From: a virus
Strand: one strand, 5' to 3'
Length of the DNA: 26,771 nucleotides
IMG/VR virus record: IMGVR_UViG_3300002231_000810
Span: 2,205-28,975 of that record
Notes under the pieces: model-generated
What the model saw: the letters and a program-made list of their open reading frames with translations, nothing else
Databases searched by the model: none
What the model was told of the DNA's origin: nothing
Translations under genes and position numbers: made by a program
In this document: in pieces, positions 5,086 to 24,649 of the stretch
Numbering within the stretch: the stretch's first letter is position 1
Layout of the letters: the number at the start of each line of letters is the position of its first letter

Positions 5086-8000
5086 ATGCCACATACTCCT
5101 AACCATAAATATTATAATATAAGACCACAACCTACGCAGAGCTTTGTGCCTACACCAAGAGCGCAAGTACAAATCCCTACTATGGGAATGTCAGCAGGGT
5201 TAAAGACTCCTATATTTGGTAGTCAAATTCCAACTATGATATCTCAAGGCAAACTGCCAGCTCCTAGCAAACCAACAACACCATCTCGTAATTTAGGAGT
5301 TAATCAAGATGCAAGTCAATCGTTAAAGTTTTTAGGATCAAGAGCATTAGATTTAGGAAAAGCAACTGCAAGAGCAGTAGACCCAACAGGTGGAGCATTT
5401 AGAAACTTTTTGCGAGGCGAAAGAGGAATGGATGTGTTTGATCCACAATCATTAATAGGAGCAGGAATAACAGCAGCAACAGCTCCAGATCAAAGTGCAT
5501 GGCAACGAGTAGGAACTGCATTGCAACCTGTAGGAAATGTGTTTGGTAAATTTACAGAAGCATGGAATCCTGTAATGTACACAGCAGCAGCTCCATTAAT
5601 AGGAGCAGGGTTTAGTCCTGCATTAGAATCTGGACAATCTTTTAATCAGTTGCATAAAAAATACAGAGATGATGGTTATAATTGGTTAGAAGCATCCGAG
5701 AAAGCAAGTCAAGAATTAGATTTGCATGAAGCTAATGTTCCTAAAGGGTGGATAGGAGATTTGCCTAAATGGGCAGAAACACCTTTAAATTTTATAGTGC
5801 CAGAAACAGTAGGAGTTAAAGGAGCTATGGAAGTAGCATTAGACCCTTTTGTTTTACTTCCTGTAGGTAAAGCAGCAGGAGCAGCAGGCAGAAGGGCGTT
5901 GTCTAAAAACCCTGCTGTAAAAGAAGCTGCTGAAAAATCTATACAACGACAAGGCACAGGATTAACAGGAGAGCAACACACAGCAACTCAATTAGAATTG
6001 TTTGAAGATATAAGTAAAACAACACCAGAGTCACAACTGCCTCCTAAACCTAAAGCAGACCCAACGCCAGATGCTAGCAATGTAGGAGATAAAGTTCCTG
6101 CTGGTCAAATGTCTTTGCCTCATGTGCAAACAGTAAAACCCTTAGAGCTTGATTTGGCTTTACCTAGTACGGAAATAGTTGTAAGCAATTTAGGAAAAGG
6201 GCAAAAATTAAGAAATTTAGTAGGAGGAATATTAGGAGATAACAAACTTCCTGTGATAGGAAGATTAGGCTTACCTACTGCAAGTGAAGCAAGGATTATG
6301 CAATACACAAAAGCAGGTATTGATGAAGCTAATTTTATAGCGACAACAGGTAACACTATGGCTAAAAGAAAAAGAATAGAATGGAATAAAGCAGCAGAAG
6401 ATACATTCGGAGAAAACATAGACAGGTCAAGAGGAGTAGAGCAACTAAAGCATTTAGTAGATGTTCCTAATTCTGGTATACCTATAGGTGTAGCTCCTAC
6501 TATAGCAGATGTAGCAGCAAGGCTTCCAAGATTTTGGAACGCACTAGAACCTGCTGAAAAACAATTCTTCAGAGAATTAAGAAATGAAATGCAAAAGTAT
6601 GATAACTATGTAAAACGAAATGGGTGGCTAGATGATGTAGGAGAAAGATCAGATGTTTTAAGAATAAGTAATGCTGATGGATCGTTAGCAGAAAACTCTG
6701 GATTTTATATATCAAGAGGTGGGTCAGTAGAAAAAATAGTAGATGGTAAAAATGCTTTTTCAATAACAGACAATCCTAAAATAAGAATTAGCACAAAACA
6801 AAAAGAAGCAGATTTAAAAATATACGAAGCAAAATTTGATAGTCAAGCAGAAGGAGTCAATTGGGTAGGAACTGCTGGAGATGAAATAGGAGCAAAGTTA
6901 GAATACAGAACATTTGCAGACTCTATACACGATACAATAAAAAATACTAACTTGCATAGAGCAAGTGATTTTAGAAGAAAGTATTTAGAAAACTTAAAAC
7001 CTAATGCTGTAAAGCCTAGATTGTCACACAAGCAATTTTTAGAAGATGCCTTTGCAGCAGGTTCATTAGACAACTTGTTAGCAGAACCTCTTGTTAAAAT
7101 AAGAAACATTCGTAAGTTAATAGATGACTTAGATGATGTGTTAACTGATCCAAAAGGATTGTCTTTTTTAAGAGCAAAAGTATTGAGCGATGACACAGTA
7201 AAAAAATTAGATGAGTTTATTAACAACCCTATAGCAGACCCAGAAGATATATTGCCAATACTAAAACAAGTGTTTAAAGAATCAAAACAATTCCGTGTAA
7301 ACTCAGATGCTGTAACAGGAAACATTCGTAGACACAGACAAAAATTAAAAGACCCTAACAGGATTCAGCAACTAGACGATGCAACAGAAAAAATATTTCA
7401 AATACAAAAAGATATACAAGCTAATATTAGAAACACAGGATTGCAATACAAAAATGCTATAAACAAAATAAAGCAAATGAGAAATAAAAAGTTAAACGGA
7501 ATGGCAGACGATATAGAATATCATGGAATACCACAAGCTAGATGGATAGATGACATGGCAGACGAAATTAAAAACTTAATGGAAAACGATCCTTTGTTAA
7601 TGCCTAAAAATCCAAATGCTATAAAAGATACTATTATGGCACTTAATGGTATGCTTAGAGGTTTTTCTGCAACAATGGATTTTTCTGCTAACGGAATTAC
7701 ATTATTGTTTGGAGCAGCAAGAAATCCTAAAGCATGGTCTACAGCGTTCAAAGCAAATTTATTGTCTTTTAAAAGTCCTAAAGTTTTAGCAAATCATTTA
7801 GAATCATACAATAAAAAAATAATAGACGAACTAGGAATTGACCTAGATACATTAATTGACAACGGATTGCACATAGCAGGAGGAGAATTTGAGTTTAGTG
7901 TTGCACAAATGGGAAGGTCAAGAGTAGCAGGGTTTTCTAAAAAATTAGAATCAGCGCCTTTAATTAAACAAGCTAACAGAGCTTTCTCAAATGCTGGAGA

Positions 8001-13739: not shown

Positions 13740-15014
13740 ATGGCAGTAACACAAGGTAAAACTAGAGAAGATTTAAGAAAAGCTATAGGTAGAAACTTAG
13801 GCAAGATGCTAACAGGTACTACATCTGGTAGTGGTTCTACTACTACTGCGTTAGATGCTACATTGTTTGGTGGAGATGATGAGTATATAGGAAGTTATAT
13901 ACGATTTACATCTGGAGATAACGATGGTTCTGTTAGAAGAATAACAGACTACGCATCTTCTACAGGCACTATGACATTTGCTGCACTTGGAGCATCAGTT
14001 GCAGGTAGCGTAACTTACGAACTATGGAAGGATCAGTTTGACCCACAGATAGTAGATGAGTTTATCAACCAATCTATATGGGAAATAACAGGAAAGTATT
14101 TTGATCCAGAAGAAAATGTTGATCTGCATACAGACAGAATAAATGCAAGGCTAGAGATACCTTCAGAGATTGCTATGATACAGGATGTGTATTACAGGAA
14201 TAAATTTACTTCAAAAGAATTACTTAGTTGTGATTCAGTATTTGATGAAACAGTTGATAGTGACTTTACTGTCAGCGTAGACACAGAAGATTACAAGAGA
14301 GGGTCTGCTTCTAACAAGTTTGTTATAGCAGTAGGAGCTTCGGCAGGAGATATAGCTACAGATTCTATAACTTCTGTTAACTTAGCCAAGTATGATTTTA
14401 TAGAGTTTTGGATTAAGTCTACAGTAGCAACAAGCGCAGGGAATCTTAAGATATTATTAGACGACTCTGCTAGTTGTGCTAGTCCTATAGAAACTTTAAA
14501 TGTACCAGCATTAACTGCTAGCACATGGAAGTATTGTAGGGTAGCGTTAAGTAATCCTCACACAGACACAGCTATTATATCTGTAGGATTAGAGTATGAC
14601 TCTGACTTAGGAGCTTGTACTGTACACTTAGATGATATTAAAGCAGTAAAGAATGACACAGCAACATGGACTAAACTTCCTAGATATCAATGGAGAATAG
14701 ATAAGGAAGGAGAGCAAGGAGCTAGTACACAAGATTTAGTTTTAACAGATGGTGGCAGAGCAGAGGTAGGGTATTCGCTAATTAAGTTAGTTGGTGGAGA
14801 TGAGCCTGCTGAATTATCTGCTGATTCTGATACAACAGAAGTACCAGAAAGATTTATAGTAGCGTATGCTACTGCATTATCTGCACAGGCAGGATCACTA
14901 AGACCAGATGCAGACATAGACTCTATGAGAAACCTTGCTGCGTTTTGGTTTGCTAAATCTGAACAAGCAAAGAATGACTTACCATTTCTAACTAATGCGA
15001 GGCTAGTTAGGTAA
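13740..15014 (+). CDS. Head-tail adaptor / tail tube protein with inserted beta-sandwich
   Basis: This 424-residue protein starts three bases after the previous stop. Residues 1-25 form a helix (REDLRKAIGRNLGKML). Residues 26-100 show the small beta motif frequent in phage tail and neck proteins (ALDATLFGGDDEYIGSYIRF, then VRRITDYASSTGTMTF). Residues 100-150 are helical (FINQSIWEITGKYF). Residues about 160-304 look like an independent jelly-roll (FIEFWIKSTVATSAGNLKIL ... VHLDDI), similar in pattern to carbohydrate-binding modules. The C terminus (about 365-424) is helical (RFIVAYATALSAQAGS), as in tail tubular protein A or adaptor proteins. The helical ends pack in a ring beneath the portal and the insert would face outward. 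The adaptor identity is inferred from order and helix pattern. Confidence 0.6.
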   Translation: MAVTQGKTREDLRKAIGRNLGKMLTGTTSGSGSTTTALDATLFGGDDEYIGSYIRFTSGDNDGSVRRITDYASSTGTMTFAALGASVAGSVTYELWKDQFDPQIVDEFINQSIWEITGKYFDPEENVDLHTDRINARLEIPSEIAMIQDVYYRNKFTSKELLSCDSVFDETVDSDFTVSVDTEDYKRGSASNKFVIAVGASAGDIATDSITSVNLAKYDFIEFWIKSTVATSAGNLKILLDDSASCASPIETLNVPALTASTWKYCRVALSNPHTDTAIISVGLEYDSDLGACTVHLDDIKAVKNDTATWTKLPRYQWRIDKEGEQGASTQDLVLTDGGRAEVGYSLIKLVGGDEPAELSADSDTTEVPERFIVAYATALSAQAGSLRPDADIDSMRNLAAFWFAKSEQAKNDLPFLTNARLVR

Positions 15015-16891
15015 TGGCTAATAAAGTTATAAAAAAAAATGAAGTATATCTTAACGGAAATTATTACCCAATAACTAGACCTGTACAGCAGGTGTTAGCC
15101 TCCATCTACCCTGCAAAGGTTGTTATTGGCGATACCACTCGTGATTCTCAGATTCGAGCAAGCGTAATATCTTGGTCTGATTTTAGGGGTGGTATAGGTG
15201 TAGAGAGAATGGAGGGAGCAAAAGATGCAGACAGAGCGTGGTGGAGTACCTGTAGCTTACGCTACAAAAGACACCTAGTATTACCAGCAAAGACAAGAGG
15301 TGGTGTATCCAATTCGGACACTACAGGAGAATCATTAGATATTATACAAGAGTTTAGTGGAGAACTATATTGTGTATATTCTAATAAAAAAGTTTACAAG
15401 TTTAATTCTGGTAACGATGGGTTTGGTAGTGCATTAGATACATTGCCTGCACAAGCAACAGATGCGTTAGAAGTTAGAATTGGTGGAACATTGTATTTGG
15501 TAGTAGCACACACAACAGGCTACACAATTACAAGTGATGCTAGCAGTTTTACAGACAGAACAAGAGATACTAAATTTCTTACATTTTGGGATGACAAAGT
15601 TTGGGGAATAGATAACACAGGTCAACTGTGGTACTCATTAGATTTGGCAACAGAAGTGCTAGATGCAAAGCTACCATTGCCAGACGGATATGTAACTGAT
15701 TTATTTGTAGCTAGAAATGCTAGTGGTAATCCTGTTATATATGCTATGACCAAAGAAGGATTGTATGCTCACGATTTTAGTGAAGGTAAATTTGTAGCAA
15801 CACAATTAGCTTTACCTTTCCACAACGAGAATGGTAAGGGTACTATTAGATGGAGAGATTCTGTATACATACCAGCAGGTCTTGGAATATACAAGTACAT
15901 CAATGGTTCTAACTCTGCTGTAGTAAGCGTAGTTGGAGCTGACAGAGATGATGGATTGCCTTCAGAAAACAGAGGTTCTATAGCACAGTTGCTAGGAACA
16001 CACAATGATTTGATAGCATTAGTAGATGGTACACTTACACCTTCTAATGTAGATATGTTTGCTAGTGGTAATGAAAGCTCTGTGATAGATGACACTACAG
16101 GATTTAGTGCAATACTAGGATGGAATGAAACAGGATGGGAAGTTAAGTGGACAGCCTCTGGATCAGCTCAAGGCAAGAAGATTACAGCAGGATTTGTTAC
16201 TGATGTAGGAGGAAACTTGGGTAGTACCAATGCTTACAGAATGTATTGGGGATTTGACGGAGAGTTATACTACCAGCAATTACAATCAGATGTTATTAAC
16301 CCTAACCAAGTAGTTAACTATGACTATGAGGATAGTGTAGACGGCATACATTACACGCCACACTTTAGCGCAGATCAAGTAGAAGTAGATAAACTTGCAC
16401 TTGAACTTAAAGTAGAAACAGATGACTGTACTTCTAACCAAACTATAAAAGTAGAGTATGCTTTAGATTACTCTGAAACTTATACTACTATGGGAACTAT
16501 TACTACTGATGGTACAACTACATATACATTTGGTAGTGGCTTGGGTACTGCGTTCAGAGCAATACAGTTTAAAATAACTCTTGCTACTAATACAGTAAAT
16601 GCATCTCCAGATTTAGTTAACTTAACTTTAATATACAGAAAGAAACTAGATTCTAAGTTTGGATGGTCTGTCAATATAGATATGAACAAAGGATACAAAG
16701 GAAAAACTCCTAAAGATATGAGGTCTAATATATTATCTGCTATACAAAGCAATACCTTATTAGAGTTTACTTACAGAGATGACTCGTCTACTAACAGAAA
16801 TTATTATGTTGATATAACTTCAGCTCAAGGGTTGGAGCATACAGCGTATGACGAAAGAGGATCAACTCAATTACTATTAACAGAGCCGTGA
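15014..16891 (+). CDS. Tail nozzle (tail tubular protein B-like)
   Basis: This 625-residue beta-rich protein starts on the last base of the previous stop. It has short strand-turn repeats between residues about 120 and 330 (for example FSGELYCVYSNKKVYKFNSG, then TLYLVVAHTTGYTI, DDKVWGIDNTGQLWYS and VIYAMTKEGLYAHDF). These read like blades of a beta-propeller, as in T7 gp12 and P22 gp10 nozzles. An early segment, DFRGGIGVERMEGAKDADRA, followed by WW is distinctive. The C-terminal 150 residues form another beta domain. Length and place directly after the adaptor match the podoviral nozzle. No sequence search was possible, so the assignment rests on pattern and synteny. Confidence 0.58.
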   Translation: MANKVIKKNEVYLNGNYYPITRPVQQVLASIYPAKVVIGDTTRDSQIRASVISWSDFRGGIGVERMEGAKDADRAWWSTCSLRYKRHLVLPAKTRGGVSNSDTTGESLDIIQEFSGELYCVYSNKKVYKFNSGNDGFGSALDTLPAQATDALEVRIGGTLYLVVAHTTGYTITSDASSFTDRTRDTKFLTFWDDKVWGIDNTGQLWYSLDLATEVLDAKLPLPDGYVTDLFVARNASGNPVIYAMTKEGLYAHDFSEGKFVATQLALPFHNENGKGTIRWRDSVYIPAGLGIYKYINGSNSAVVSVVGADRDDGLPSENRGSIAQLLGTHNDLIALVDGTLTPSNVDMFASGNESSVIDDTTGFSAILGWNETGWEVKWTASGSAQGKKITAGFVTDVGGNLGSTNAYRMYWGFDGELYYQQLQSDVINPNQVVNYDYEDSVDGIHYTPHFSADQVEVDKLALELKVETDDCTSNQTIKVEYALDYSETYTTMGTITTDGTTTYTFGSGLGTAFRAIQFKITLATNTVNASPDLVNLTLIYRKKLDSKFGWSVNIDMNKGYKGKTPKDMRSNILSAIQSNTLLEFTYRDDSSTNRNYYVDITSAQGLEHTAYDERGSTQLLLTEP

Positions 16892-16892
16892 T

Positions 16893-17303
16893 ATGGTAAG
16901 TCCAAGAGCATATACAAATGTAGAAGCGCCACCAGAGTGGTCTGGAAGTTTGCCAGAATACATGGTTTATAACTCTTTAACTACTACATTTAGATTAAGA
17001 GATGGTAATGAATTTGACTACCAGACTTCTTTGCTAGGTGGTAGAATGAGCAAAGGTGGAGTAGTGTTAGATTTCTTTTTCTATGACCCACCAGACCTTG
17101 CAATTAATGTTCAAGGAGAGTATTATCATTATGGTATGGGGTCTACTATATCACAAAATGATGTGTTTATTAGAGCGCAAATGGCAGGGCAAGGAATAAG
17201 TTTAATATTTATAGACGAGAATGATATCTATAGAGATGTAGACTACTATGTTAGACAGGCATTAAATTATAAAGATCACTCCAAGTTAGGAGGAGGAAGA
17301 TAA
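16893..17303 (+). CDS. Vsr/DUF559-like nuclease-fold protein in the tail module
   Basis: This 136-residue protein starts two bases after the nozzle stop and ends directly before the fibre gene. Its layout recalls Vsr/DUF559-type PD-(D/E)XK proteins: a helix with E22 (SLPEYMVYNSL), a strand with D60 (GGVVLDFFFYDPPDL), a strand INVQGEYYHYG (residues 71-81), a helix about 88-100, then ISLIFIDENDIYRD. The aligned family pattern would be (V/L)DF...IEVDGEYHH. Here the E of IEV is Asn72 and the D of VDG is Gln74, so catalysis is doubtful. It could be an active terminus-processing or connector nuclease, or a fold reused as a structural part. Placement inside a tail operon is unusual for a repair enzyme. 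Confidence 0.5.
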   Translation: MVSPRAYTNVEAPPEWSGSLPEYMVYNSLTTTFRLRDGNEFDYQTSLLGGRMSKGGVVLDFFFYDPPDLAINVQGEYYHYGMGSTISQNDVFIRAQMAGQGISLIFIDENDIYRDVDYYVRQALNYKDHSKLGGGR

Positions 17304-18734
17304 ATGGCAACAATATATCAAGCAGGATATGTATTTAAAGATGACGGAACTGCTGTTAGTGGAGCAAGTGTACAGTTATTTCAAGCTGACACAACTACTA
17401 CAGTAGGAAGTGCAAGCACAACAGACTCGAATGGGTATTGGGCGTTAAGTACAACCACAGAACACGCATCTGGATATGATGTAAAAATAACTTCTGGTTC
17501 TTCTATTAGATATAGAAGAGGTAACGACAAGTTACAGATAGAAGAATTAGATATAAGAAATGATACAGGCAATACACAAGGTGGATTACTTGTAGCTAAT
17601 ACAACTAATAATGCTAGTAACAAAGTAGCAACCTTTGCTAATAGAAATACTACAAGAGCAGACGGAGATGAAATATACATTTCGTTTGAACTTAATGACG
17701 ATGGTGGAAACATACATGAGTTTGCTCGTATGACAGCGGAAGCAGTTGATGTTTCTAATGGCTCAGAAGATGGGCAGATTAGATTTGGCGTGTCAGTAGC
17801 AGGAACTATGACAGATGTTTTTACTATCAATGCTACTACAGCAGGAGTAACTGACATGACACTAGATGTATCTGGAGATATATCTTTAGATGCAGACGGA
17901 GCAGACATATTTTTTAAAGATGGTGGTACTACATTTGGATCAGCTACTAACAATAGTGGTAACTTAATAATCAAATCTGGTACTACAACAGCTCTTACTT
18001 TTACAGGATCTAGTGTAGCTATAGCAGGAGATTTAACTATAACAGGAGATGACTTAGTTATGGGAACTAACACAAGTGGTCATGTTCTTGTAGCTGACGG
18101 CACAAACTTTAACCCTGTAGCAATTAGTGGCGATATAACAATGGCTTCTAATGGAGCAGTTACTATAGCTGGTACTTCTGTAGAAACAGGAATGATAGCA
18201 GCAGATGCTATTACAGGAGCTAAGATAGCTGATGATGCAATAGGTAGTGAACATATAGCAGACGATGCTATCACATCTGCCTTAATAGCTGATGATGCAA
18301 TAACTTCTGCGTTAATAGCAGACGATGCTATCACAAGTGCTTTGATTGCAGACGATGCTATTACTACAGCATTGATAGCTGATGATGCTATTACATCTGC
18401 ATTGATAGCAGACGGAGCAGTTACTACTGCTTTGATAGGAGCAGATGCAGTAACCAATGCTAAGATTGCAGATGATGCAATTAATAGTGAACATTATACA
18501 GATGGCTCTATTGATACAGCGCACATTGCAGACGACCAAGTAACCCTAGCTAAGATGGCAGGGTTAGCAAGAGGTAAACTTATTGTAGGAGATGCAAGTG
18601 GCAACCCTTCAGCATTAGCAGTAGGTTCTGCTAATTATGTTTTAACAAGTGATGGTACTGATACAGCATGGGCAGCAGCAGCAGCAGGTGGTATATCAGC
18701 AGGAAAAGCATTAGCTTATTCAATAATATTTTAA
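17304..18734 (+). CDS. Tail fibre protein with tandem 10-residue repeats
   Basis: This 476-residue protein starts directly after the previous stop behind GGAGGAAG. Residues 1-80 look like a small Ig-like/carboxypeptidase-regulatory domain (VFKDDGTAVSGASVQLFQAD), probably the virion anchor. Residues about 85-290 are beta-rich with Asp/Gly/Thr turns (GDISLDADGADIFFKDGG). Residues about 293-418 are 10-residue repeats of the form IADDAITSAL, likely a trimeric beta-helix or stacked shaft. The last 58 residues (GKLIVGDASGNPSALAVGSA ... KALAYSIIF) form a tip of the kind seen in marine phage fibres. No chaperone protease domain or enzyme active site is visible. Receptor contact may be shared with the proteins encoded downstream. 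Confidence 0.75.
   Translation: MATIYQAGYVFKDDGTAVSGASVQLFQADTTTTVGSASTTDSNGYWALSTTTEHASGYDVKITSGSSIRYRRGNDKLQIEELDIRNDTGNTQGGLLVANTTNNASNKVATFANRNTTRADGDEIYISFELNDDGGNIHEFARMTAEAVDVSNGSEDGQIRFGVSVAGTMTDVFTINATTAGVTDMTLDVSGDISLDADGADIFFKDGGTTFGSATNNSGNLIIKSGTTTALTFTGSSVAIAGDLTITGDDLVMGTNTSGHVLVADGTNFNPVAISGDITMASNGAVTIAGTSVETGMIAADAITGAKIADDAIGSEHIADDAITSALIADDAITSALIADDAITSALIADDAITTALIADDAITSALIADGAVTTALIGADAVTNAKIADDAINSEHYTDGSIDTAHIADDQVTLAKMAGLARGKLIVGDASGNPSALAVGSANYVLTSDGTDTAWAAAAAGGISAGKALAYSIIF
18181..18558 (+). repeat. 30-bp in-frame tandem repeats of the fibre shaft
   Basis: About a dozen 30-base units encode variants of ADDAITSALI. The best-conserved run is 18250-18430, with units such as GCAGACGATGCTATCACA followed by a codon group for S-A-L-I. 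Neighbouring units differ mostly at synonymous third positions (GAC/GAT, GCA/GCT). Outer units diverge to IADDAIGSEH, IGADAVTNAK, IADDAINSEH and IADDQVTLAK. All units are direct, contiguous and in frame. Confidence 0.85.
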
Positions 18735-22810: not shown

Positions 22811-22966
22811 TTGAAAAAGAAATTAAAGATAGCATTAAGCACTATCATACTTACTACTACAGTAAGTTATCTCGTACAGTATTGGTTCAAGCATTCTGGC
22901 TTGGAAGATAAAACACTCAACAAACTAGATGATGTTAAAGATATATTCAATGGAGGTAAGAAATGA
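22811..22966 (+). CDS. 51-residue membrane-anchored protein, TTG start
   Basis: The frame has no ATG or GTG but begins with TTG at 22811, four bases after a good ribosome site (GATGGAGG). It ends at TGA 22964-22966, overlapping the next ATG by four bases. The product has KKKLK, then a hydrophobic stretch (about residues 6-25, IALSTIILTTTVSYLVQYWF), then a charged helix (LEDKTLNKLDDVKDIF). This fits a single-pass inner membrane protein with a short charged tail, as in small spanin-like or antiholin proteins. The ribosome site and the ATGA overlap make coding likely. The function is inference. Confidence 0.6.
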   Translation: MKKKLKIALSTIILTTTVSYLVQYWFKHSGLEDKTLNKLDDVKDIFNGGKK

Positions 22967-23121
22967 ATTGGATTGCAAAAATACGCCCTCAAATTTTAGT
23001 AGCAATAATTATACTTGGAGTTATAGCAGTATATGCTTTGAAAGTAGGATATGTAGAAGTAGCAACAGCTACTATAGGTGGACTGATTGCACTAGGCATG
23101 AAGGTCTTGGAGGCAGATTAA
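22963..23121 (+). CDS. Probable holin, 52 residues, two membrane segments
   Basis: The gene starts within an ATGA overlap, with GGAGG seven bases upstream, and ends one base into the next ATG (TAATG). It has a short basic N terminus (MNWIAKIRPQ), a first hydrophobic segment (ILVAIIILGVIAVYAL, residues 11-26), a tight turn KVGYVE and a second hydrophobic segment (VATATIGGLIALGMKVL, residues 33-49). It then ends EAD. A two-pass hairpin of this size next to other small membrane proteins is the usual look of a class II-type phage holin, which permeabilises the inner membrane at the end of infection. The assignment is by topology and context. Confidence 0.65.
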   Translation: MNWIAKIRPQILVAIIILGVIAVYALKVGYVEVATATIGGLIALGMKVLEAD

Positions 23122-23477
23122 TGTTTACTTATGATTGCGAAGTAACTCGTGTGGTAGATGGAGATACTTGTGATGTTACTATTGATCTTGGGTTTAAGAT
23201 AATGCACAAGGCACGAGTAAGGCTACATGGTATCAATGCGCCAGAGTCTAGGACTAGGGATAAAGAAGAAAAATACAGAGGACTACAGGCTAAAGCTAGG
23301 TTTAAAGAACTTATAAGAGAAAGAGAAACTAGATTAATCAGCCATGACAAAGGTAAGTATGGCAGAGTATTAGGAGAGATATTAATTAAATCCACACACA
23401 ATGACAAGTGGGATAGTGTTAATAAAATTTTAGTTCACGAAGGTCATGCAGTAGAATACTATGGAGGTAAGAGATGA
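23121..23477 (+). CDS. Staphylococcal nuclease-like (TNase/SNase) protein
   Basis: This 118-residue protein begins at ATG 23121 in a TAATG junction. An in-frame ATG at 22929 would add residues read across the holin gene in the wrong frame and is rejected. It shows the SNase landmarks: VTRVVDGDTCDV (D15 equivalent to Asp21), ARVRLHGINAPES (R34 equivalent to Arg35, E42 to Glu43) and HDKGKYGRVLGEI (R82 equivalent to Arg87). The usual Asp40 calcium ligand is Asn39 here, a change I recall in other phage members. There is no signal peptide, so it should act in the cytoplasm on host or phage DNA/RNA. The late position next to a holin suggests degradation of host DNA or action around lysis. Activity is likely but not certain. 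Confidence 0.85.
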   Translation: MFTYDCEVTRVVDGDTCDVTIDLGFKIMHKARVRLHGINAPESRTRDKEEKYRGLQAKARFKELIRERETRLISHDKGKYGRVLGEILIKSTHNDKWDSVNKILVHEGHAVEYYGGKR

Positions 23478-23750: not shown

Positions 23751-24239
23751 TTAAAAATATTCCTTAAGATAATCTGGTAATTGATTTATAATGTTAGATA
23801 TATCTACCCTATTCTCGCTTTCTTTTAGGCAATAGTCACACTTAACTACTGTTCGGAAGGTAATCGTACCATGACAACTTTTAGTAGCGCCTTTGATGCA
23901 GTATGTGTAATCGTAGTTACTCCGTAAAAACTTTTCTTGGTCACACCATTTGTCTAATTTGTTTTCGTACATAGGAGAAAAGTCTTTGTAGTCAGTTAGC
24001 AATCTCTCTCCTTCTATGTTTAATTCTTTCTGCCTGTTTCTTAACCATCTTAGTTTCTCAAAAAATATTTTAGATTCGTCTTGATGTTCCTGTAATACCT
24101 GTGATACTTCCGACATTTTATGCTGGTCAACCTCGTCATCTATTTCTAAAAGTACCTTAGTACCTTCGTACTTAATGACCACACCCAAATCTTCCATGAC
24201 CATTACTGCCTGCCCTACTATTTTAAATATCTCATTCAT
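23751..24239 (-). CDS. Hypothetical protein with C-terminal Cys cluster
   Basis: This 162-residue protein is last in the minus-strand operon and overlaps the resolvase gene by four bases. Residues 1-85 are mostly helical and charged. The C-terminal part has Cys at about 99, 114, 122, 134 and 137. C114-x7-C122 and C134-x2-C137 (CHGTITFRTVVKCDYCLKE) could form a zinc ribbon. No enzyme motif is recognised. In an operon with primase, helicase and resolvase genes, a nucleic-acid-binding accessory role is reasonable but unproven. Confidence 0.6.
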   Translation of the reverse strand: MNEIFKIVGQAVMVMEDLGVVIKYEGTKVLLEIDDEVDQHKMSEVSQVLQEHQDESKIFFEKLRWLRNRQKELNIEGERLLTDYKDFSPMYENKLDKWCDQEKFLRSNYDYTYCIKGATKSCHGTITFRTVVKCDYCLKESENRVDISNIINQLPDYLKEYF

Positions 24240-24649
24240 TCTATCTCCTTTATATATACTAATGTTTTAATGTTTTGTTTGTCTGATTTAGTAAACTTTA
24301 CTCTTAGTTCCATGTTAGATGGTTTATCATCTATAAGTATTCCACTATCTACTATGCCATCCAGAGTAGACTTCATTCCGTATATCAAGTTATCTAAATC
24401 TATTTCCCTGTTGTTATAGAAATGGTAGAACACTTCTGCTTTCTCCATAGGTATAAAGTCAATTGTACCTATAGCATCTATAGTTAACCACTTAGCAGTA
24501 TCTCTTCTCTCTCTGTTGATTCTTCGCATGGTTCTCCAATGCGCTCTCGTGTTACCTCTGATCTCTGCTGGTGGTACATCGTAGAATATTAATTTATATT
24601 CTCTCCTTCTTAAATTTGTTTTTTCTTTTTCTATTTTTCTTACTTCCAT
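24236..24649 (-). CDS. rusA: RusA-family Holliday junction resolvase
   Basis: This 137-residue protein belongs to the RusA family of small dimeric nucleases that cut four-way DNA junctions during recombination or before packaging. The signature is REIDLDNLIYGMKSTLDGIV then DSGILIDDKP: D84 and D86 of DLDN, K93, D97 and the DD at 107-108 supply the expected acidic cluster, as in E. coli RusA (Asp70, Asp72, Asp91). A preceding RGNTRAHWRTMRRI segment matches the substrate-binding N-terminal strand and helix. The first 16 residues are extra, very charged, and overlap the upstream gene by 56 bases. No later start codon fits, so the long start is kept. Cytoplasmic. Confidence 0.85.
   Translation of the reverse strand: MEVRKIEKEKTNLRRREYKLIFYDVPPAEIRGNTRAHWRTMRRINRERRDTAKWLTIDAIGTIDFIPMEKAEVFYHFYNNREIDLDNLIYGMKSTLDGIVDSGILIDDKPSNMELRVKFTKSDKQNIKTLVYIKEIE

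Follow-up and report, generated by a model that had tools for sequence, protein, structure and literature searches.

Part of one account (PMC3943268) describes the EDxHD/Hef homing endonucleases as long, multi-domain proteins with DNA-binding regions, and excerpts of two others present T4 gp4 as a restriction-fold nuclease that is virion-associated and needed for packaging (PMC7824862) and FASTKD4 as a protein that uses a Vsr-like fold without nuclease activity (PMC11879112). The gene analysed here lies at 16893-17303 (+) of a 26,771-nucleotide stretch (the window) of the 28,975-base IMG/VR virus record IMGVR_UViG_3300002231_000810, in which it is present as a single copy. Its product, P0001, lacks the long multi-domain build of the EDxHD/Hef enzymes, being a single domain of 136 residues with no extra DNA-binding domain. 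A literature search, superficial in scope and with most subscription journals outside it, brought up no prior account that we recognised of such a tail protein.

Predicted fold and sequence kinship of P0001

We find that an AlphaFold model of P0001, built on a 23-sequence alignment (pLDDT 78.9, pTM 0.76), contains the alpha-beta-beta-beta-alpha-beta core of PD-(D/E)XK proteins (helix 20-32, strands 41-43, 61-63 and 69-74, helix 85-99, strand 103-108), and that the canonical (D/E)xK of the third strand is absent, with N72-x-Q74 in P0001 and N or S plus Q, L or I across a 100-protein set. When the model is compared with 752 re-aligned chains, the top match is E. coli Vsr (1cw0; Z 9.3, rmsd 3.6, 109 residues), with I-Bth0305I just below it (3r3p; Z 9.2, rmsd 3.2, 94 residues), then 3hrl (Z 8.7) and 1vsr (Z 8.4), and then mitoribosomal and FASTKD4 chains (FASTKD4, Z 7.8); a DUF559-like protein is also among the best matches, and TnsA (1t0f) is weaker (Z 5.4). 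Foldseek likewise places 3r3p first (E 0.043, probability 0.99), and its E-values for P0001, above 0.001, are weak, yet two programs and two libraries are concordant. Among viral models, DUF559 proteins, endonuclease-like proteins and homing endonucleases make up most of the named matches.

P0001 itself matches no Pfam family, Vsr (PF03852) and DUF559 (PF04480) included, and no PHROGs family; PADLOC and a tblastn search against phages return nothing, Pfam Vsr finds no match in the window's own genome, and a scan of genome contigs matched 100 stretches, none of them a relative. Two ribosomal S24e matches among PDB sequences (E 0.024 and 0.16) were judged to be chance, since they cover only residues 13-62 and the fold of the P0001 model differs. 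Direct sequence matches come from orthologs. One of these, L289 (relatives are numbered as IMG/VR contig loci), was reached via its hub gene and matches Hef-like homing endonucleases (tblastn E 5e-4), the PADLOC HEase profile (E 8.6e-5) and, under the respective cut-offs, Pfam Vsr (4.2e-5, 23.8 bits against 27) and DUF559 (17.4 against 20.6). Another, L061, matches the Microcystis phage MaeS protein QJT70403 (263 aa) at 6e-4, and this MaeS protein clears the DUF559 (PF04480) cut-off (21.2 against 20.6). The L289 gene (6239-6577) also matches PADLOC DpdF (E 3.4e-5, profile positions 81-141 of 1078). Taken together, the model supports a Vsr-type PD-(D/E)XK fold for P0001; the nuclease fold and the Vsr/DUF559 likeness proposed by an earlier, sequence-only reading are upheld by the AlphaFold model, which is related to the PD-(D/E)XK core, by the structure matches and by the ortholog sequence matches.

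The residues read from the sequence are E22, D60, N72, Q74, H79 and D90, with the motif INVQGEYYH, and the open reading frame, E22, D60, N72, Q74 and that motif are just as the sequence-only reading gave them. The EDxHD positions are found at E22 (codon 16956-16958 (+), an active-site position), D60 (17070-17072 (+), the metal-ligand position of the fold, Vsr D51 in alignments), H79 (17127-17129 (+), the Vsr H69 position) and D90 (17160-17162 (+)), the use of D90 as the last letter being our own assignment. N72-V73-Q74 (17106-17114 (+)) stands for the usual (D/E)xK. In alignments, the positions of D60 and H79 are common to Hef-type endonucleases, which have Glu and Asn where P0001 has N72 and Q74. 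A low-probability alignment with E. coli Vsr (hhalign probability only 1.3%) places Phe62 and His64 opposite N72 and Q74, and D51 and H69 opposite D60 and H79. N72 and Q74 alone are therefore no proof of a dead enzyme, and the earlier hint that they mark a dead site was too strong. A tree of 41 rows, which has long branches for MaeS, Acj9 and L017, places the P0001 family in one clade against four homing-endonuclease rows (96/95).

Two other genes of the window touch on nucleases. The one at 22929-23477 is staphylococcal-nuclease-like (Pfam SNase, 2.1e-13), and its true start may lie further in, since about the first 60 residues of the open reading frame are unlike the rest. The product of 24236-24649 (-), which has no Pfam match at 0.1, presumably resembles a RusA-type Holliday junction resolvase.

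Inheritance of the gene with the tail hub

Upstream of P0001 lies the 625-residue tail hub, or nozzle, protein (15014-16891 (+)), whose stop is separated from the P0001 gene start by 1 base. An AlphaFold model of the hub from a 14-row alignment (pLDDT 78.0) is predicted to have a P22 gp10-like fold, its best five Foldseek matches being podovirus hub or nozzle chains (Pa223 tail, P22 gp10 and Sf6; E 8.6e-13 for 9nwi and 4.9e-12 for 8eap). Downstream, the ATG of the tail fibre gene (17304-18734 (+)) directly adjoins the end of the P0001 gene; the fibre matches tail-fibre PHROGs (best E 7.4e-24), so that both labels given to these neighbours on sequence alone, nozzle and fibre, hold. The fibre has a conserved N-terminal domain, encoded from 17304 to about 17588 and common to 92 of 100 downstream open reading frames, and its residues 8-62 give a weak CarboxypepD_reg match, below the cut-off. 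An internal repeat is seen in the fibre gene at 18193-18489, with 147-base copies about 68% alike in comparison with relatives and repeated ADDAITSALI units. The 424-residue protein upstream of the hub (13740-15014 (+)) occurs in the same order in relatives and is inherited along with the P0001 gene (r 0.855).

In 108 distinct gene copies, counting the window's, the genes usually run as follows: one for a protein of about 420 residues, the hub, sometimes one or two small open reading frames, and the P0001 gene, which in the main clade is followed by a large fibre. In some of the most distant members (L017, L127) the hub adjoins a P0001-type gene and a fibre of the usual kind does not. In L017, a 169-residue open reading frame with CxxC pairs (6386-6895 (-)), HNH-like by eye, comes directly after the nuclease-fold gene, in the usual place of the fibre. 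A conserved open reading frame of about 98 residues lies between hub and nuclease-fold gene in many loci (for example L270, 5938-6231) of one large branch, which is not that of the window, and L262 has an extra small Lys-rich frame (6153-6428) between this one and the nuclease-fold gene. The position of the P0001 gene is comparable, by analogy and with no claim of homology, to that of the needle gene of P22, which sits after gp10.

Relatives were fetched via the hub gene, which avoids selection on the nuclease-fold gene itself; all that entered the counts are IMG/VR contigs. The major capsid protein shows a resemblance of about 30-32% identity to its counterparts in Pelagibacter phages and phage DSL-LC06. 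Of the first 80 loci, 69 carry the gene after the hub, and the sequence of the remaining 11 stops no more than 544 bases past the hub match. Two scans that reached further afield and one final scan brought the total to 136 loci, a few of them one contig fetched twice (such as L276 and L302). Of these, 120 encode the gene just downstream and none has two copies; the remaining 16 break off no further than 541 bases after the hub, L262 doing so in roughly the first 20 codons of the gene. Pairwise distances of the gene track those of the hub (r 0.884 for 97 loci, a value reached in 0 of 500 permutations), with a median dN/dS of 0.081 for the gene (120 pairs) and 0.090 for the hub (155 pairs). The gene is a fixed member of the tail block, co-inherited with the hub and under purifying selection. 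Such constancy of place, with every exception cut by a contig end, together with hub-matched distances and a single clade, is not the behaviour of a mobile endonuclease, and the sporadic presence expected of mobile EDxHD/Hef enzymes is not seen.

The gene as an exchange boundary was considered and found unsupported: DNA similarity to most close relatives continues across the gene and is lost some 430-740 bases further on, within the fibre. Two comparisons differ, with change starting between hub and gene. Against the near-identical L270 and L271, L273 has a hub 99.9-100% identical, a gene 80% identical over 74% of its length and a fibre start with no match; L304 and L305 have nearly identical hubs and differ in the version of the nuclease-fold gene behind them. 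In L273, nuclease-fold gene and fibre may move together as a cassette, and the replacement of both gene and fibre start behind the same hub hints, as a single case, at a partnership with the fibre.

Active-site conservation and loss

In a set of 100 distinct relatives from motif-seeded protein searches, E22, D60 and H79 are each present in 100, D90 in 99, and N72 and Q74 in 98, and 12 positions are invariant, E22, D60 and H79 among these; the set was partly selected on motifs, D60 and H79 being inside the search patterns and E22 and D90 outside them. The 100% conservation of the site is a product of these searches and is overturned by the hub-selected set of 92 distinct proteins. Among the 89 of full length (the partial L216, L244 and L324 were left out), 67 retain E22, D60 and H79 together; the site is partly lost in the other 22, which are encoded at the same position. 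The residue pattern of the sequence-only reading is thus more than chance, and acidic residues are conserved in most homologues though not in all of them.

The 67 intact-type proteins all have N or S instead of the usual catalytic Glu, and conserve the GGRMSKGG loop (residues 49-56, 17037-17060 (+)), with G49, G50, G55 and G56 in 67 of 67 and R51 and K54 in 66. The 22 site-lost proteins, in every one of which H79 is replaced, fall into two groups, X and Y, and the loop is mostly changed or deleted in both. In group X (15 proteins), position 22 is A or S in 14 members and position 80 is His in 14; the residue is D or E at position 60, E at position 75, and one of T, A, S and N at position 79, and D90 is kept. 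Loss of activity in this group is likely but not certain, given the D or E at 60, D90 and the His at 80. In all seven group Y proteins position 60 is A, K or T; position 79 is taken by N, T, A or D, and the GGR..KGG loop is mostly gone. L309 retains E22 and D60 though in the site-lost set. In a quick hub-protein tree of 58 of the 90 available rows (all 22 site-lost and 36 others), with long branches at the base, all 22 lie in one nested clade (SH-aLRT 88); a Y-type gene (L297) among X-type hubs is a sign of exchange.

Groups X and Y are still under purifying selection, with dN/dS of 0.10-0.28 over 8 and 9 usable pairs, hub values being available in 4 and 6 of them. Constraint is somewhat weaker in group Y, where the gene median is 0.218 against 0.1 for the hub, about twice as high. 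Another choice of pairs gives an intact-type median of 0.21 (244 pairs), which is not comparable with the 0.081 from 120 pairs. With positions split after inspection of the data, retention is 30% in each of groups X and Y for the 11 site and loop positions, and 71% and 75% for the remaining 25 conserved positions. Positions kept across all groups include P13, W16, G18, F41, F61, F63, A123, L124, D128 and S130; D128 and S130 are each kept in 64 of the 67 intact, 13 of the 15 group X and all 7 group Y proteins. These two residues lie in the C-terminal YKDHS motif of P0001 (17268-17282 (+)), a candidate docking peptide, and the corresponding YRDHS motif is mostly kept in site-lost proteins. A clade that has lost the site and kept the gene, along with its other positions, indicates that the gene can persist after the site residues, as a unit, have been lost.

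Proposed role of P0001 and comparison with known systems

We favour, with moderate confidence, the view that P0001 is a core tail-module protein descended from a Vsr/EDxHD-type (Hef-like) endonuclease domain, and that what all versions do in common is non-catalytic and takes place at the hub; its main job is probably structural. The argument for a non-catalytic shared job comes from the nested clade, which keeps the gene under purifying selection after active-site loss. Recruitment of a nuclease fold as a tail part was one branch of the sequence-only reading and is the better supported one, the gene being fixed in the tail block and kept by one clade after site loss, so that this proposal stands in part. 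At the hub, P0001 would most likely serve as an adaptor or assembly factor, and in the main clade it would do so where hub and fibre meet, by means of its hydrophobic core and both ends of the protein, the N-terminal P-x-x-W-x-G and the C-terminal YRDHS. A hub-fibre bridge would not be universal, since L017 and L127 lack an adjoining fibre of this kind. In the intact majority, the window's phage included, the older E22/D60/H79/D90 pocket is still under constraint and would still act, by nicking or by binding metal or DNA; its residues show no variation in that majority and disappear jointly in the other clade, so the pocket should have a use of its own.

A possible, if tentative, variant keeps P0001 as a tail building block in all versions and adds a Vsr-like pocket that acts on DNA at the tail in the 67 of 89 and was dropped in the nested clade of 22; its target could be, for example, DNA leaving the hub or a rival's genome, and one branch would then be caught turning a tail enzyme into a pseudo-enzyme. 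That catalysis is the main job, with P0001 an active late nuclease that, like T4 gp4, trims or nicks DNA at packaging or tail joining, we consider unlikely. The retention of E22, D60 and H79 in 67 of 89 proteins, their invariance in the motif-seeded set and the precedent of a restriction-fold nuclease needed for packaging, as set out in part of PMC7824862, speak for it; the site-lost proteins, which keep the gene under purifying selection and would call for a substitute, and the replacement of the usual catalytic Glu in all intact-type proteins speak against it. Location in the tail block and the intact-type site would also suit the other branch of the sequence-only reading, a virion-borne enzyme that acts on DNA, be it incoming host DNA or, at superinfection, the genome of a competitor, and part of PMC11620839 describes interference by a homing endonuclease, though not a virion-carried one. 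This seems to us improbable, with no DNA-binding domain beyond the 136 residues and one clade without the site.

Two further explanations were weighed. The ribosome-binding-like sequence of the fibre gene, AGGAGGAGGA (17288-17297 (+)), lies within the last codons of the P0001 gene and could help to keep its 3' end, but it is very improbable that the gene is a relic retained mainly for this site or for coupling fibre translation, as protein-level selection runs along the gene (dN/dS 0.081), core positions are conserved in the site-lost clade, and L017 and L127 retain the gene with no adjoining fibre. A free-standing mobile homing endonuclease sitting in the tail block by chance is scarcely credible: kinship with Hef-like enzymes fits it, and the occupancy of 120 of 136 loci, all others being truncated by a contig end, the hub-tracking distances, the separate clade and the absence of an extra DNA-binding domain do not. 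The coexistence of intact-site and lost-site versions at the same genomic place makes structural and enzymatic roles separable with natural proteins, and a homing-endonuclease-type domain settled permanently among tail genes would clearly exemplify how a selfish enzyme becomes virion machinery.

Among known systems, T4 gp4, compared by its description in part of the literature, is likewise a restriction-fold protein within a morphogenesis set, but it is TnsA-like and head-linked, and TnsA reaches only Z 5.4 against the P0001 model. FASTKD4 and the mitoribosomal RAP-type domains share the Vsr-like fold but are mitochondrial RNA-related proteins and offer a precedent for repurposing only. DUF559 proteins are linked to the P0001 family by the match of L061 to MaeS, whereas P0001 has no DUF559 match and MaeS, almost twice as long, has Glu at the N72 position. 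Vsr is the best structural match, with D51 and H69 corresponding to D60 and H79 and, in the low-probability alignment, likewise without the usual Glu and Lys; it differs in that P0001 escapes its Pfam family and sits in a tail block. The EDxHD/Hef-like homing endonucleases (I-Bth0305I, CP81 hef-7, PC5, Acj9) share with the P0001 family the fold of the catalytic domain, the D60 and H79 positions and weak direct sequence matches from orthologs, but they have Glu where the family has N72, are 459-642 residues long in the four proteins compared against the 136 of one-domain P0001, and spread by mobility, whereas the P0001 gene is fixed in place.
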